Shown here: in pieces, positions 6,320 through 17,209 of the stretch | Layout of the letters: every line of letters starts with the position of its first letter | Position numbering within the stretch: the first letter of the stretch is position 1 | Assembly: GCA_904419525.1 (NCBI GenBank) | Contig: CAJFRT010000009.1 | Coordinates: 1 to 64,000, forward strand | Direction: 5' to 3' | DNA: 64,000 nucleotides | Source of the DNA: Candidatus Gallimonas merdae | GTDB lineage: Bacteria > Bacillota > Clostridia > Christensenellales > Borkfalkiaceae | Notes under the pieces: generated by a model | What the model was told of the DNA's origin: nothing | The model's database searches: none | The model's input: only the letters and a program-made list of their open reading frames with translations | Made by a program: the position numbers and the translations under genes

Positions 6320-8233
6320 TCAGATGTCCAGATCTTTTACCAGCGTCGCGTTCTGTTCGATGAACTGACGGCGGAGCGCGGGGCTCTCGCCCATGAGAAT
6401 GGTGAACATCTTGTCCGCCTCCATGGCGTCGCGCATGGAGACGCGCACCAGCGTGCGGGTCGCGGGATTCATCGTCGTGTCCCAGAGCTGTTCGGTGCTC
6501 ATCTCTCCGAGGCCCTTATAGCGCTGATACTCCACTTTGTTGTTGTTTGCGGCGTCGTAAGCCGTCTTTTCCTCTTCGGAATAGAGGTACACGTCCTCTT
6601 TTCCCTTGACGCTCGCCTTGTAGAGGGGCGGCATCGCGGAATAGACGTGCCCGTGCTCGATGAGCGGACGCATATAGCGGAACAGGAAGGTCAGAAGAAG
6701 GATCCGGATATGCGCGCCGTCGACATCGGCATCGGTCATGGAGATGATGCGGTCGTAGCGCAGCTTGCTCTCGTCGAAGTCGTCGAGAATGCCGCAGCCG
6801 AACGCAGTGATCATCGCCTTGATTTCGGCATTTTCCAGCACGCGGTTGAGGCGCACCTTTTCCACGTTCAGGATCTTGCCGCGAAGGGGCAGGATCGCCT
6901 GGAACCTTCTGTCTCTCCCCTGTTTTGCCGTGCCGCCTGCCGAGTCGCCCTCAACGATGTAGATCTCGCACAGCTCCGGGCGCTTATCCGAGCAGTCGGC
7001 CAGCTTTCCGGGGAGCGTGGTGGATTCCAGCACGCCCTTTCTGCGGGTGAGTTCGCGGGCGGAGCGGGCCGCGTCGCGCGCTTTCTGCGCCGTGATGCAG
7101 CGCAGGACCAGCTCGCGCGCCTCGGCGGGGTGTTCTTCGATGTATGTGCCGAACTCCTCTGCCACGCACTTGGAGACAAAGGGACGCACGAACGAATTGT
7201 TGAGCTTATCCTTGGTCTGCGATTCAAACTGCGCGTTTTCGAGCTTGACGGACACGACCGCGGTGATGCCCTCGCGCACGTCCTCGCCCGTGAGCCTGTC
7301 GCTCTCCTTTAAGATGTTGAGCTTTTTGCCCGCGTCGTTGATGACTTTGGTGAGCGCCTGTTTGAGCCCTTCCACATGCGTTCCGCCGTCGATGGTGTTG
7401 ACGTTGTTGGCATAGGAATAGATGACCTCGTTGTAGCCGTCGTTGTATTGCAGGGCGATCTCGCAGACGGTGGTGCCGTCCTGCTCCTCGAAATAGAGAG
7501 GCTCGGGGAAGAGCGTCTCGTTCCCCTTGTTGAGCTCTTCCACCAGCTCGCGGATCCCGCCCTCGTAGCAGAAGCTGTCCGAGCGCACCGTTTCGCCGCG
7601 CCGGTCGGTGAGGGTGATCGTCAGCCCCTTGTTGAGAAAGGCAAGTTCCTTGAGGCGGACGCGGAGAATGTCGTACTTGAACACGATCGTCTCGAAAATT
7701 TCGGCGTCGGGAAAGAAGGTGACCTTGGTCCCCGTCTTATCGGTATCGCCGATGATCTGAAGGGAACGCTGGGGCACGCCGCGGTTATACACCTGTTTAT
7801 AGACGTGGCCGTTCTGGGACACCTCCACTTCCAGCCATTCCGAGAGCGCGTTGACGGCCTTGACGCCGACACCGTGCAGGCCGCTGGACACCTTGTAGCC
7901 CGAATCGCCGCCGAATTTTCCGCCCGCATTGACCTTGGTAAAGACGACCTCGACCGTGGAGACGCCCTCCTTGGGGTGGATCTCGGTGGGGATCCCGCGC
8001 CCGTTGTCCTCGACGGTGCAGGAGCCGTCCGCGTTGATCGTGACGTCCACGCGGTCGCAGTAGCCCGCGAGCGCCTCGTCAATGGAATTGTCGACGACTT
8101 CGCTCACAAGGTGATGAAGCCCCTTTTCGTCCGTCGAACTGATATACATGCCGGGGCGCTTGCGGATATGCTCGAGCCCGTCGAGCACCTGAATTTGTTC
8201 CGCGCCGTATGCGCCCTCTACCTTTTCTGACAT
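6320..8233 (-). CDS. gyrB: DNA gyrase subunit B
   Basis: 637 residues, full length. GyrB supplies the ATPase that drives gyrase strand passage. It has the GHKL ATPase domain (VDNSIDEALAG, VEDNGRGIP, SSGLHGVGVKAVNALS), the transducer, and the Toprim domain with EGDSAGGTAKQGRDR, PLRGKILNVEK and the DADVDGAHIR metal-binding acidic cluster, ending in the GyrA-binding tail (KGLGEM). AAGGAG lies 8 bases before the ATG. It is upstream of gyrA. GyrB rather than ParE follows from the neighbouring gyrA and overall pattern. Confidence 0.98.
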   Translation of the reverse strand: MSEKVEGAYGAEQIQVLDGLEHIRKRPGMYISSTDEKGLHHLVSEVVDNSIDEALAGYCDRVDVTINADGSCTVEDNGRGIPTEIHPKEGVSTVEVVFTKVNAGGKFGGDSGYKVSSGLHGVGVKAVNALSEWLEVEVSQNGHVYKQVYNRGVPQRSLQIIGDTDKTGTKVTFFPDAEIFETIVFKYDILRVRLKELAFLNKGLTITLTDRRGETVRSDSFCYEGGIRELVEELNKGNETLFPEPLYFEEQDGTTVCEIALQYNDGYNEVIYSYANNVNTIDGGTHVEGLKQALTKVINDAGKKLNILKESDRLTGEDVREGITAVVSVKLENAQFESQTKDKLNNSFVRPFVSKCVAEEFGTYIEEHPAEARELVLRCITAQKARDAARSARELTRRKGVLESTTLPGKLADCSDKRPELCEIYIVEGDSAGGTAKQGRDRRFQAILPLRGKILNVEKVRLNRVLENAEIKAMITAFGCGILDDFDESKLRYDRIISMTDADVDGAHIRILLLTFLFRYMRPLIEHGHVYSAMPPLYKASVKGKEDVYLYSEEEKTAYDAANNNKVEYQRYKGLGEMSTEQLWDTTMNPATRTLVRVSMRDAMEADKMFTILMGESPALRRQFIEQNATLVKDLDI

Positions 8234-8302
8234 GACAATCTCCTTATCTGTAAATTTCGCATGATTGTTTCTGAACGGATAACTGCCGTAACACTTATAT
8301 CC

Positions 8303-8331
8303 ATTATAACACGCGCGCGCGAAAAAGTACA
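8303..8331 (-). promoter_or_regulatory. Probable gyrB promoter
   Basis: TATAAT (8303-8308) lies 17 bases from a TGTACT -35 (8326-8331), about 70 bases upstream of gyrB. An alternating GC tract fills the spacer. The rest of the 8234-8561 gap shows only this promoter and the divergent one at 8509. Confidence 0.5.
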
Positions 8332-8508
8332 GCGAAACGGCGGCGAATCAGGTGAAATTTTCCACAAGGACGGCAAAAAAGGCGCGTATTTTCGCCTACA
8401 CGCCGTTTTTACACCCTTGCGGTGGTGGGATATATCAATTATATTTATGCCCGCACAGGGGCATTTACGTGTCCGCAAACATCTGCCGTACGCCCGCGGT
8501 TTCACCTC

Positions 8509-13828: not shown

Positions 13829-13857
13829 TTGCTTTTTCCGGGCGACAGTGCTATAAT
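13829..13857 (+). promoter_or_regulatory. Sigma-A promoter of the AEC transporter
   Basis: TTGCTT (13829-13834), a 17-base spacer and TATAAT (13852-13857). Confidence 0.75.
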
Positions 13858-13882
13858 GCCGCACGGACTTCAAGGAGAGAAT

Positions 13883-14866
13883 ATGACCGATATCATCGTT
13901 AAAGTACTTCTCATCATGCTCGTGCTGTTCGCCTTCGCCGTGCCGGGATTTATCCTGAAAAAGACCAATCTCGTCAGATCGGACAGCCTGTATTCCATCT
14001 CCAACATCCTGTTGTGTTTCGCCCAGCCCATGCTCATCATTCAGGCGTTCGCCGTCGATCCCATTCCGCCCGACGGGGATACCCTTCTGAACTTTTTGTG
14101 GGTGTTCTTGTTCTCCGTTGCGGCGATCTTTCTGACGTTCGGCGCGTCGAAGCTCTGTTTCCTCTTTATGAAGGGGGACGAGCAGCAAAAAAAGCGGGAC
14201 GTGCTCATCTTTGTGGGAACGTTTTCCAACTGCGCGTTCGTCGGGATCCCGTTCGTGGACATGTTCACGGGCGGCGACTCCGAAGCCATGATGTATGTCA
14301 CCGTGTTCACCGTTGCGTTCAACCTCATTCTCTGGACGCTGGGCGCATACCTGATCACGCAGGACAAAAAGCAGATCTCCCTTAAAAAAGCGCTGCTCAA
14401 CCCCTGCACGATCGGCTCCGTGATCGGATTTGTGCTCTTCCTCGTCCCGCAGATCAATATTTTCAACATGGACGAAGTCGCCGAACTGCAGCAGATCGTC
14501 ACCTACGGCGGCGGCATGACCGCTCCCCTTTCCATGCTGGTGGTGGGCGTGCGCATCGCCGAGCTTTCCCCCAAAAAGCTGTTCCGCGACAAGACGATCT
14601 ACCTTGCCGCCTTTGTGCGGCTCGTGCTGTCCGCCGCCCTCAGTTACCTGCTCATTCTTCCGTTCAGGCTGACGGGCGTATTTGCGGACACGCCATACGT
14701 TCTGCTTGCCCCCGTCATCGCCATGGCAATGCCGCCCGCCGCGAGCGTGGTGGCGTTTGCCGAAAAACTGGACGGGGAAAAGGAGTTTGCCGCGGCCGCC
14801 TACGCGACGGGGACCATTTTATCCATCGTCACCCTTCCCGTCGCGATGCTGCTCATCTCCCTCTGA
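13883..14866 (+). CDS. AEC-family (auxin efflux carrier) transporter
   Basis: 327 residues with about ten hydrophobic segments in two halves. FAFAVPGFILKK at the start and TFSNCAFVGIPFVDMF in the middle are typical of bacterial AEC permeases, which export malate, organic anions or similar solutes. AAGGAGAG precedes the ATG. It is monocistronic, divergent from spoVT, with its own promoter and terminator. The substrate cannot be deduced. Confidence 0.88.
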   Translation: MTDIIVKVLLIMLVLFAFAVPGFILKKTNLVRSDSLYSISNILLCFAQPMLIIQAFAVDPIPPDGDTLLNFLWVFLFSVAAIFLTFGASKLCFLFMKGDEQQKKRDVLIFVGTFSNCAFVGIPFVDMFTGGDSEAMMYVTVFTVAFNLILWTLGAYLITQDKKQISLKKALLNPCTIGSVIGFVLFLVPQINIFNMDEVAELQQIVTYGGGMTAPLSMLVVGVRIAELSPKKLFRDKTIYLAAFVRLVLSAALSYLLILPFRLTGVFADTPYVLLAPVIAMAMPPAASVVAFAEKLDGEKEFAAAAYATGTILSIVTLPVAMLLISL

Positions 14867-14870
14867 CACA

Positions 14871-14897
14871 AAAACCGCCGGCTTCCCGGCGGTTTTT
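14871..14897 (+). terminator. Terminator of the AEC transporter
   Basis: AAAACCGCCGG, a 4-base loop CTTC, CCGGCGGTTTTT, starting two bases after the stop codon. Confidence 0.9.
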
Positions 14898-14954
14898 CCG
14901 TTCGCTTCCCGCAACGCTCCCCCGGGCGGACATCGCCCCGGGCTGTCCGCACAC

Positions 14955-14987
14955 AAAAAACCGCGGGCGTTCCGAAGAACCCCGCGG
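14955..14987 (-). terminator. Terminator of the second Pho-box small RNA
   Basis: CCGCGGG (14961-14967) pairs with CCCGCGG (14981-14987), with an inner GTTC/GAAC stem. It is followed on the minus strand by TTTTTT. Confidence 0.8.
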
Positions 14988-15114
14988 GAGGAAAAGACAG
15001 GCGCATACAAGTTTTCCCCCGTTTGCGCGTCGCGGCGGCGATCGCCGTACCTTTCTGCAACAAGCCGCCCCGCATCTTTGTCCGCTCTGTTTGTCCGGCG
15101 CATTTCCGCCGTCT
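14955..15114 (-). ncRNA. Candidate PhoP-controlled small RNA B (about 160 nt)
   Basis: The predicted transcript starts 7 bases after a TATGAT box and ends at a strong terminator. The only long frame inside reads through the terminator stem without a stop, so coding is unlikely. Just before the terminator is an unpaired CU-rich stretch, CTTTTCCTCCC, complementary to Shine-Dalgarno sequences (GGGAGGAAAAG). That is the usual targeting motif of Firmicute sRNAs. Promoter and layout repeat those of small RNA A directly upstream. Existence and function are inferred. Confidence 0.5.
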
Positions 15115-15120
15115 GTATCT

Positions 15121-15174
15121 ATCATAGCACCCATTTGTAAAAAACTCCGCACAAAATTGTAACGGGCTTGTAAA
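15121..15174 (-). promoter_or_regulatory. Pho-box promoter B
   Basis: On the minus strand TTTACA (15169-15174), GTTACA (15158-15163), a degenerate box (15147-15152) and TTTACA (15136-15141) are phased exactly 11 bases apart, then TATGAT (15121-15126) follows after 9 bases. This matches the B. subtilis PhoP core binding region (TTAACA-like repeats, about -22 to -60). Confidence 0.65.
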
Positions 15175-15181
15175 AATTTCC

Positions 15182-15216
15182 AAAAAACAAAAAACCCGCA
15201 GAAAGATTCCTGCGGG
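15182..15216 (-). terminator. Terminator of small RNA A
   Basis: CCCGCAG (15195-15201) and CTGCGGG (15210-15216) form the stem. On the minus strand TTTTTTGTTTTTT follows. Confidence 0.9.
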
Positions 15217-15297
15217 GGGTTGGGAGAGATGCGCCGATGCGGATGGGTCTGCGGCGCACAGGATGAGCGAATGAACGGGGAGTTTTCCCGTGATTCC
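15182..15297 (-). ncRNA. Candidate PhoP-controlled small RNA A (about 115 nt)
   Basis: The predicted start is 7 bases after TATAAT and the end is at a strong terminator. No ORF with a ribosome site fits. A stem TGCGCCG/CGGCGCA is followed by CATCTCTCCC and a C-run just before the terminator. CATCTCTCCC is the exact complement of GGGAGAGATG, i.e. a ribosome site plus ATG. The promoter matches that of RNA B almost base for base. It is inferred to be a regulatory RNA made under phosphate limitation; no expression evidence exists here. Confidence 0.55.
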
Positions 15298-15303
15298 GAT
15301 CCG

Positions 15304-15357
15304 ATTATACCAGAAAGTTGTAAAAAAGTTCCCACGCAAATGTAACGAAATTGTAAA
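15304..15357 (-). promoter_or_regulatory. Pho-box promoter A
   Basis: On the minus strand TTTACA (15352-15357), GTTACA (15341-15346), a degenerate box (15330-15335) and TTTACA (15319-15324) have exact 11-base phasing. TATAAT (15304-15309) follows 9 bases on. The architecture is identical to promoter B. Confidence 0.7.
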
Positions 15358-15383
15358 ATCTTTGCCTTCGGGTAAATTTTTAT

Positions 15384-15408
15384 AAAAAAACGCTCCCCGC
15401 AGGGAGCG
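15384..15408 (-). terminator. Terminator of the 15423 lipoprotein
   Basis: CGCTCCC (15391-15397) and GGGAGCG (15402-15408) with a seven-T run on the minus strand. It separates the lipoprotein from Pho-box promoter A. Confidence 0.9.
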
Positions 15409-15422
15409 CTTTTTGTCTGATG

Positions 15423-16298
15423 TCAGGCGACGGAAGGAAGCGTAACGCTCTGCCCGCCGTATGTATAGACGAGTCCGACTTCAGCTTCCATGCCGCCGGA
15501 CATCCCTTCCTCTGCCATATTCATGGACGCCTGCGAATAGATCGCGCCGAGTTTTCCGTCCTTGAACTTGTAAATGAGTTCTCCGCCGATATTGAGAGAC
15601 GCACCGCCGCCGGAAGCCGACAGGTCGCCGTCCGCCGCAACGTACCCTTTTTTCTCCTCGCTGTAGCTGTACTCCGCAAACGCACCGACCAGCGCGCTCT
15701 GGTCGAGAATGCCCAAGCACGCTTCGTACATCGTCTCCGCCATTTCACTCAGATCGCCGGCTGCGGAAGCGCTGATCCAGTTCCCTTCACCGTCCTTGAT
15801 AAAAAACCCGACGGGATCGGCAAAGGAGATATATAACTCCACATTGCCATCTTCGGAGACGGCTTCCTCCATACCCATAAGCGCCAGAAGATTTTCGGAA
15901 CCATCCACTTTGACCGAATAGTCCATGTTGAAATGCATGGCATTGTTGGCGATCACCACTTCCGACGAGGCGTTCATCTCAAGATTTGCCTCCATCGCCT
16001 CGACCGTTTGCCCGAAAATTTCCCCTCCCTCCGTGGCAAATTCGTATTTCATCTTGATTTCGAACTCCGCCTTGTAGTTGGGAGCCTCCGCCGTCTCATC
16101 GGCGACCGTCTGCACAGGCAGAGCGACGGAAGTTTCCGTTTCATACGCCGTACCCGCCATGGCAGCATCCCAAACGTCCTCCGTGACCTCTTCGCCCTTC
16201 ATACTCTTTGCCTTGTTCACCGTCCCGCAGCCCGCAAACGCAAAGAGCAGACAGCCCGAAAGCGCTACAGAACCGATTGCCAGAATTGTTTTTTTCAT
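15423..16298 (-). CDS. Lipoprotein of a paralogous family (VTED-W ... YGGQSVTLP module)
   Basis: 291 residues. MKKTILAIGSVALSGCLLF leads to lipobox FAGC, so it is an exported lipoprotein. The body begins EVTEDVWDAAM, has many beta strands with acidic residues (KAEFEIKMKYEF, AMHFNMDYSVKVDG, GNWISASA) and ends VYTYGGQSVTLPSVA. The same opening and closing motifs occur in the lipoproteins at 22044 and 29064, defining a local family. The fold may resemble other bacterial LolA/LppX-like lipoproteins, but I do not assert that. The ATG at 16298 is supported by AGGAGG. It has its own promoter and terminator. Confidence 0.82.
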   Translation of the reverse strand: MKKTILAIGSVALSGCLLFAFAGCGTVNKAKSMKGEEVTEDVWDAAMAGTAYETETSVALPVQTVADETAEAPNYKAEFEIKMKYEFATEGGEIFGQTVEAMEANLEMNASSEVVIANNAMHFNMDYSVKVDGSENLLALMGMEEAVSEDGNVELYISFADPVGFFIKDGEGNWISASAAGDLSEMAETMYEACLGILDQSALVGAFAEYSYSEEKKGYVAADGDLSASGGGASLNIGGELIYKFKDGKLGAIYSQASMNMAEEGMSGGMEAEVGLVYTYGGQSVTLPSVA

Positions 16299-16334
16299 AC
16301 CACCCTCCTGTTCCGGAATGTATTCCGTGACAGT

Positions 16335-16363
16335 ATCATACCCCATTTTTCAGAAGCTGTCAA
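16335..16363 (-). promoter_or_regulatory. Sigma-A promoter of the 15423 lipoprotein
   Basis: TTGACA (16358-16363), a 17-base spacer, TATGAT (16335-16340). Confidence 0.8.
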
Positions 16364-16435: not shown

Positions 16436-17128
16436 TTACAGGAGCAGCAGCAGAATGCTGATGAATTGCAGCGCCGTTCCCGCAATGTCAAACAGATGCC
16501 AGACGGAATGGAACCACTTGCGCGTTCTGCCCAAGGCATAGAACACGATGCCAGCAGTATAGGCTATGCCGCCCGCCAGGAGAAAGCCGAGGCTCAGGGG
16601 CGACACGGCGGCCAGAAGCTGCGGAAAAACCGCCGCGGCCATCCAGCCCGTCACGACATACAGTGCCATGGAGATGCCTTTGACGACCTTGTTGTTCATC
16701 GCAACGGCGTTCATCACGATCCCGACCGCCGCACAGCCCCACTGCAATCCGAATACGATCCAGCCCGCCGCACTGCCCGAGAGCGCGATCAGGCAAAAGG
16801 GCGAATAGGTGCCCGCGATGAGCAAAAAAATCGTACAGTGATCGAAGATGCGGAACACGCCCTTCGCCCTGCCGTCCGGCAGGAAATGATAGAGCGCGCT
16901 CATCGTGTACAGCACCACCGCTCCCAGCCCGAACAGGGAAACGGCGATGAGCGCCGCCGCGTCGGGATAGGCAAAGAGGGCGAGCACGATCCAGAACACG
17001 AGCCCGAGCGCGCCGCCCGCGATGTGCGACACGGCGTTGAACACCTCTTCTCCCTTCGTATAGAATGAAAAAAATCTTCCGTCCTTGGTGGTAGTCCCCT
17101 TTTCGGGAACGGCTGCGATTGCCTGCAT
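16436..17128 (-). CDS. Hemolysin III/PAQR-family membrane protein
   Basis: 230 residues with seven hydrophobic segments. Family marks are NAVSHIAGGALG near residue 31, SALYHFLPDGRAKGVFRIFDHCTIFLLIAGTYSPF in the middle, and the C-terminal FHSVWHLFDIAG. The histidines form the zinc site of this progestin/adipoQ-receptor-like superfamily. Bacterial members are named for hemolysin III, but their usual role is uncertain. The ATG at 17128 follows GGAGGAAAC. Promoter and terminator flank it, so it is monocistronic. Confidence 0.9.
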   Translation of the reverse strand: MQAIAAVPEKGTTTKDGRFFSFYTKGEEVFNAVSHIAGGALGLVFWIVLALFAYPDAAALIAVSLFGLGAVVLYTMSALYHFLPDGRAKGVFRIFDHCTIFLLIAGTYSPFCLIALSGSAAGWIVFGLQWGCAAVGIVMNAVAMNNKVVKGISMALYVVTGWMAAAVFPQLLAAVSPLSLGFLLAGGIAYTAGIVFYALGRTRKWFHSVWHLFDIAGTALQFISILLLLL

Positions 17129-17180
17129 GGCGTTTCCTCCCCCGGCGCTTTTCCGTCGTCTGTGCACCGAATCCATGCTC

Positions 17181-17209
17181 AGTATATGACAGCCGCCGCA
17201 AAATCGCAA
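17181..17209 (-). promoter_or_regulatory. Promoter of the hemolysin-III gene
   Basis: TTGCGA (17204-17209), a 17-base spacer, TATACT (17181-17186). Confidence 0.65.

Follow-up and report, generated by a model that had tools for sequence, protein, structure and literature searches.

Two minus-strand units in one intergenic gap share a four-box promoter

What do two short units in the gap between an AEC-type transporter gene and a lipoprotein-like gene of Candidatus Gallimonas merdae encode, and which regulator would control them? We analysed a window of 64,000 nt from this genome (G000 in our numbering of 103 genus genomes); the genus consists of uncultured Clostridia whose named members come from chicken gut. 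A sequence-only reading had described two Pho-box promoters of the same design in a 556-base gap, each driving a terminator-bounded transcript with no credible open reading frame. Direct reading gave the same length for the gap (14867-15422), which separates the AEC-type transporter gene (13829-14866, plus strand; Pfam PF03547) from the lipoprotein-like gene (15423-16346, minus strand; without a Pfam family). Both units, A and B, lie inside it on the minus strand, at 15357-14955.

The described order of boxes phased 11 nt apart, nine bases, a -10 element and a terminator was also found by direct reading. In the unit A promoter (15304-15357, minus strand), the boxes TTTACA (15357-15352), GTTACA (15346-15341), GTGGGA (15335-15330) and TTTACA (15324-15319) are separated by N5, and nine bases after the fourth box comes the -10 element TATAAT (15309-15304). 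The unit B promoter (15121-15174, minus strand) has the same spacing, with TTTACA (15174-15169), GTTACA (15163-15158), GTGCGG (15152-15147), TTTACA (15141-15136) and, again after nine bases, TATGAT (15126-15121). Pattern searches recovered both. The promoter pair was the sole direct repeat above 20 nt reported in 14860-15430 (55 nt, 73%). The idea of a shared design holds for the promoters but not for the transcripts, since the alignment shows likeness in the promoter only. The proposed transcript length of 115-160 nt suits B (∼158 nt) but not A, which comes to ∼108 nt when its start is placed, by assumption, 7 nt downstream of the -10 element.

The four-box pattern is present in the genus beyond chance. 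With up to three mismatches, it occurred 37 times across the seven genomes with unit A, compared with once for the reversed pattern. The boxes together with the -10 element, with up to two mismatches, were found at 86 places in 31 of the 103 genomes, and the corresponding reversed pattern had no match in the 103. A consensus from 66 sites with at most one mismatch reads TTTACA, (G/T/A)T(T/G)ACA, GTGCGG and TTTACA, followed by an extended (TGN) -10 element (T.82, G.91). The third box had been called degenerate; it is present but not merely degenerate, being GTGCGG-like across these sites (positions 23-28: G.89, T.98, G 1.0, C.62, G.77, G.70). As the sites were picked with a pattern that includes GTG, its fixed letters are high by construction, but CGG, the spacers and the TGN extension lay outside the pattern.

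Two conserved predicted transcripts, very probably non-coding

BLASTN found unit A in seven of the 103 genomes (G000, G004, G028, G061, G071, G075 and G078), a count that leaves out four short places (G027, G085 and two in G000), and the four-box promoter precedes it in all seven. An exact 19-mer, CGGCGCATCTCTCCCAACC, occurred on six contigs among 84,980 named species genomes, a set from which the window's own genome is possibly absent; the contigs belong to Candidatus Gallimonas faecavium, Ca. G. caecicola and four other Clostridia MAGs. The predicted RNA A (15189-15297, minus strand) has a 5′ part that varies between genomes and a nearly invariant 3′ 80 nt. This 3′ part comprises a hairpin, UGCGCCG/CGGCGCA (15229-15259), whose seven pairs are invariant in all seven genomes and whose outer pair is kept in six; the stretch UCUCUCCCAACC (15218-15229), identical in 7/7 and complementary to Shine–Dalgarno sequences; and an intrinsic terminator, CCCGCAG/CUGCGGG-U6 (15189-15217; hairpin ∼15217-15195, T6 15194-15189). 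None of 200 shuffles folded as well as RNA A from G000 (z -3.39). In the minimum-energy folds of all seven, UCUCCCAACC is unpaired, and the first one or two bases of UCUCUCCCAACC close the hairpin. No covariation was seen in the stems of the seven sequences, which are invariant, so the predicted hairpin rests on energy rather than covariation; the automatic consensus fold of A also pairs the terminator U-run with the 5′ part.

Unit B lies directly behind A in G000, G004, G028, G078 and G061, counting the best five of 35 places and excluding the other 30 (E 6.5e-6 to 0.01). A BLASTN search in related genomes, which the sequence-only reading had named as a check, thus recovered both units: A in 7/103 genomes and relatives of B directly behind A in four genomes besides the window's. 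The predicted RNA B (14955-15114, minus strand) folds moderately better than its shuffles (4/200 as good; z -2.44) and, by reading and folding, ends in its own intrinsic terminator (14955-14988; hairpin ∼14988-14961, T6 14960-14955). Each unit is therefore bounded by a hairpin and T6, as had been proposed.

Conservation in B centres on a hairpin top, CGGGGGAAAACUUG (15008-15021, minus strand), an exact copy of which stands behind the four-box promoter in eight genomes. The exact core CGGGGGAAAACTTG occurred in 10 of 103 genomes, the reversed pattern in three. In G017, G073 and G079 it stands after the promoter and before a terminator, and G074, the ninth genome, has in the same setting a core shorter by one A; the occurrences in G081 and G012 were dropped as B units, being coding-like sequence without Pho boxes. 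All nine B-type RNAs fold as a hairpin topped by the CGGGGGAAAACUUG core (shortened in G074). Below the top, GCGC/GCGC changes to ACG/CGU in G017, AACG/CGUU in G079 and CGUU/AACG in G074, so that in this comparison of single folds the pairing is kept while the letters change. We recognised no targeting site in RNA B.

The tandem arrangement behind the same promoter raises the idea that RNA B acts as a sponge for RNA A, its GGGGG pairing with the C-rich linker. A 6-bp duplex between them is possible (-10.5 kcal/mol), but an equally good pairing arose in 73 of 1000 shuffled B loops, and the two RNAs do not keep company: B-type units occur in four genomes where A was not found, and in G071 and G075 A is present but the B core is not. 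We consider a sponge improbable and, with that many shuffles equalling it, rejected it.

One or both units might instead encode a small Pho-induced peptide, as an mRNA or a dual-function RNA. Five genomes have in B a gapless open frame of ∼75 nt from ATGCGG. Four of them have the ATG, but G061 has ACG, no clear Shine–Dalgarno sequence precedes the frame by eye, and this frame is missing from the shorter units of G017, G073, G079 and G074, which retain the hairpin top, making a peptide from B unlikely. A start-stop mini-ORF, GGGGG-N5-TTG-TAA, was also considered for B and fails in G000 and G061. RNA A has an NTG at its hairpin base in 7/7 genomes, but the frame that follows varies between genomes and the bases do not. 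Because the loop length differs between genomes, the NTG sets three different frames for UCUCUCCCAACC (by reading: G000/G028/G071; G061/G004/G075; G078). Invariant letters in three frames suggest that A is probably non-coding and kept as an RNA, and we discarded a peptide from A on this disagreement. Consistent with the earlier statement that neither unit has a credible open reading frame, a peptide product is, we judge, quite improbable, and comparison across genomes makes it very probable that the units give two non-coding transcripts.

The promoter matches that of the pst operon

In G000, the same promoter structure lies directly upstream of pstS (C2:185668-185721; TTTACA-N5-GTGACA-N5-GTGCGG-N5-ATTACA-N9-TATCAT). 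The operon behind it encodes, in order, PstS, a fused PstC-PstA, PstB, PhoU, a Na/Pi cotransporter-PhoU protein, a response regulator and a PnpS/PhoR-like kinase. PstC-PstA, PstB and PhoU score above the NCBIfam curated cut-offs; PstS, the response regulator and the kinase fall under the curated (equivalog) cut-offs, the latter two being named by context and PstS by context and Pfam. The pst operon encodes a cognate regulator and kinase of its own, and the direct repeats upstream of the -10 element are phased by 11 nt, two features of a Pho regulon. In the same operon, PstC and PstA form one 611-aa protein (L070 10823-12658, minus strand), and the Na/Pi cotransporter has a C-terminal PhoU domain (L070 7415-9079, minus strand).

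Across the genus, 76 distinct box sequences, which come from part of the 86 places only, were searched downstream by tblastn: PstS follows 22, a small putative membrane protein eight and a Na/Pi cotransporter four. The remaining 42 have none of those three proteins downstream. By reading, 22 of these 42 drive RNA units (A seven, B nine, and, described below, C four and C-like two), and the other 20 of the 76 lead into other sequence with none of these genes or RNA types. With the same promoter before the genome's own pst-phoU-phoPR operon and PstS downstream of 22/76 sites, the identification of the boxes as Pho boxes is strongly supported by comparison, and both units are highly likely to be under PhoP control.

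The cell-wall regulator WalR offers another owner for the boxes, its consensus being TGTWAH-N5-TGTWAH (PMC9210968). The reverse complement of boxes 1-2, TGTAAC-N5-TGTAAA, fits this exactly, on the other strand. Against this, 22 of the 76 distinct sites precede PstS and four a Na/Pi cotransporter, the genome's own pst-phoPR operon included, and the genome yielded no more than three OmpR-type regulators, including the one of the pst operon. The genes identified behind the motif are for phosphate transport and a small protein, in a search that covered PstS, the Na/Pi cotransporter and this small protein and left 20/76 sites unassigned. A WalR-like owner is very unlikely and was rejected on the phosphate transport genes behind the motif, despite the fit to the consensus.

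Several further sites carry related boxes. A 124-aa putative membrane protein stands directly behind the same Pho promoter (L071 ∼8036-8500; G000:C6:58035); its first 80 residues have a best Pfam match under the cut-off, and it and its relatives stand behind 8/76 sites. Weaker box sets in G000 lie at C5:41730-41767 and C14:32325-32378 (plus strand), the C5 site upstream of a 118-aa protein (MNMEQEKQFARQ...). Diverged boxes precede a 6-phosphofructokinase gene in L139 (G076), with a similar start in L137 (G001), and boxes resembling the diverged version of L139 occur in G062, G034 and G081. It is possible, from these boxes, that glycolysis is linked to the Pho response.

Further Pho-driven RNA candidates in the genus

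In four genomes (G070, G074, G079 and G017; L132, L136, L145 and L008), the same promoter precedes a third type, unit C, which lies upstream of a phosphoglycerate kinase gene (NCBIfam match, L145). Unit C has a hairpin loop CUGCCC(C/A) and, shortly before its terminator, UCCUCCCAAA, in a position resembling that of UCUCUCCCAACC in A. Looser relatives were seen by eye in G013 and G016, a 24-nt match in G106 was excluded from the count, and BLASTN found no unit C in G000. Of the 103 genomes, 12 contain A, B or C, alone or together, a number that rises to 14 with the two looser C-like units; the 12 are a lower bound, because diverged copies would be missed. By this comparison, A and B belong to a wider set of predicted Pho-driven RNAs in the genus.

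Three other Pho-driven loci without a clear gene, L148 (G026), L009 (G016) and L127 (G013), carry GGGAAAAC near the 5′ end. It resembles the top of RNA B, and the two may possibly be a shared binding or stabilising element.

That unit B (or C) serves the next gene as a Pho-controlled leader carrying an attenuator, as might be suggested by the phosphoglycerate-kinase-like gene after unit C and by the same kind of gene (which we take to be tex; no NCBIfam match at 1e-20) after the B-type unit in G017, G073, G079 and G074, is highly improbable: where such genes follow, promoter-like sequences were seen by eye after the terminator, and in G000 B leads no gene, because the next one, the AEC transporter gene, is convergent. 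Beside the lipoprotein gene lies a gene (16436-17209, minus strand) that is presumably of the hemolysin III type, and a likely relative of it directly precedes the B-type unit in G079 (L117). This linkage to B, comparable with Spd_sr97 at hlyX (see below), is possibly chance or an old linkage.

A candidate target for RNA A

Targets of RNA A were sought as TGGGAGAG-N2-10-ATG in the seven genomes that carry it. The pattern occurred at 60 places, of which three are unit A itself in antisense, compared with 24 for the reversed pattern. Among 50 of the 60 places read by eye, no gene recurred, and many had no long open frame. One of the nine places in G000 is the start of nrdD, identified from its first 203 residues, whose best NCBIfam match is an anaerobic ribonucleoside-triphosphate reductase.

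The nrdD start was read in 13 of 14 genomes; none was found in G028. In genomes with A, the site before it is GGUGGGAGAGAG (G000), AGGGAGAGAG (G071), GUUGGGAG (G004), GGUUGGGAG (G078), CAGGGAGAG (G075) or GUUGGAG (G061), and in the seven without A it is AAGGAG-like or other. Pairing energies with A were ranked against those of 27-121 genes sampled from each genome, the starts of which a script had guessed. The nrdD site ranked first in G078 (1/27), G071 (1/40) and G000 (1/121), where it had itself been chosen from nine places. In G075, it was lower than all 35 sampled genes (its own nrdD being outside the sample), and in G004 it was second of 43. It was mid-range in G061, with 59% of sampled genes as low, and in the seven genomes without A, with 33-76% of the A-carriers' pooled genes as low.

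On an nrdD tree, the six A-carriers group together, which corresponds to one change (support 35/81, weak). Because they cluster, the RNA and its putative target may co-occur by descent, and for the same reason nrdD is a lead rather than proof. We regard nrdD as a tentative target, with the pairing ranks suggesting it but the balance of probability lying against it.

Proposed mechanism

We propose, as the probable explanation, that A and B are two separate tandem small-RNA genes that the Pho system activates when phosphate is short, with A blocking translation and B acting through its hairpin top. The promoter identity with pst operons, the conservation, the predicted structures and the disagreement of frames in A all come from comparing sequences; from them we infer transcription, a response to phosphate and an anti-Shine–Dalgarno action. 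Under low phosphate, the PhoP/PnpR-type regulator of the pst operon would be phosphorylated, occupy the four boxes and activate the extended -10 promoter, and each unit would be transcribed to its own terminator. In RNA A, UCUCUCCCAACC, predicted to be mostly unpaired between two hairpins, would pair with G-rich Shine–Dalgarno regions and block translation, anaerobic ribonucleotide reductase (nrdD) being the best candidate message found. That A acts by Shine–Dalgarno pairing is reasonably likely. RNA B would act through the invariant hairpin top CGGGGGAAAACUUG.

A broader version is speculative and rather doubtful: that the Pho regulator runs, beside its transport arm, an RNA arm of at least three unrelated types (A, B and C), all behind the four-box promoter and in sets that vary between species, in which A saves phosphate by shutting off nrdD and B works through its conserved G-rich hairpin top by an undescribed mechanism. 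If it were true, low phosphate would directly lower deoxynucleotide synthesis through A, and these uncultured gut bacteria would handle phosphate starvation through RNA in addition to transporters. The nrdD lead would, in that case, couple the supply of phosphate to the synthesis of DNA precursors. For direct tests, the invariant linker of A and the hairpin top of B are obvious sites.

Comparison with known systems

No Rfam family reached its gathering score in the A/B region, where 19 sub-threshold matches had a best E of 0.22. A and B are thus families not in Rfam, and the earlier remark that no named family matches stands. The only Rfam match in the window is a ZMP/ZTP riboswitch (RF01750; 21267-21347, minus strand; 61.5 bits). 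The further suggestion that the pair would be a new element holds in that neither has an Rfam family, but not in kind, since candidate PnpR-specific small RNAs have been reported in pneumococcus (PMC11034029). Among the best literature matches listed, none was a stand-alone Pho-driven small RNA gene with a conserved body in Clostridia.

A review describes PHO boxes as direct repeats of 11-nt units to which a PhoB/PhoP-type regulator binds (PMC4415409), as here, and it has no occurrence of 'sRNA' or 'small RNA'. In the portions available of two Corynebacterium papers (PMC4046766, PMC8247434), phosphate is mentioned only in passing.

Small RNAs under two-component control are already known. Pho-linked small RNAs exist in Sinorhizobium, and the csRNA promoters of streptococci carry CiaR repeats other than the four-box pattern. 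The csRNAs, controlled by CiaRH, resemble A and B in having an intergenic response-regulator promoter followed by a terminator; they are 51-202 nt long, number two to six per genome with 40 types in the genus, and contain stretches able to pair with translation starts, but they answer to CiaR and not to a Pho regulator (PMC3091779). LhrC1-5 of Listeria monocytogenes are likewise two-component-controlled and occur in several copies; their UCCC motif, located in loops as well as in single-stranded RNA joining the stem-loops, binds a G-rich sequence ahead of the start codon (PMC4132741). RNA A shares UCUCCC in such a stretch, with UCCC in the single strand between stem-loops in 7/7 genomes, and for pairing with the ribosome-binding site of a target it has the nrdD lead in five of six A-carriers, confounded by descent. 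A most likely pairs with Shine–Dalgarno sites as LhrC or the csRNAs do. LhrC, however, depends on LisRK, answers to envelope stress instead of phosphate, and is one RNA in five copies (PMC4132741), whereas A and B are unrelated transcripts.

The closest report in a Pho-type system concerns Streptococcus pneumoniae, where CiaRH is called the only system known to control small RNAs and where the expression of Srf-24, Spd_sr52 and Spd_sr97 changes specifically on PnpR overexpression (PMC11034029). Spd_sr97 has a weak putative PnpR motif and lies at the 3′ end of hlyX; it and Srf-24 are in untranslated regions of genes, and the authors present them as candidates without further validation (PMC11034029). 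Compared with these PnpR-linked RNAs, A and B each possess a dedicated four-box promoter and terminator, and both show conservation across species.
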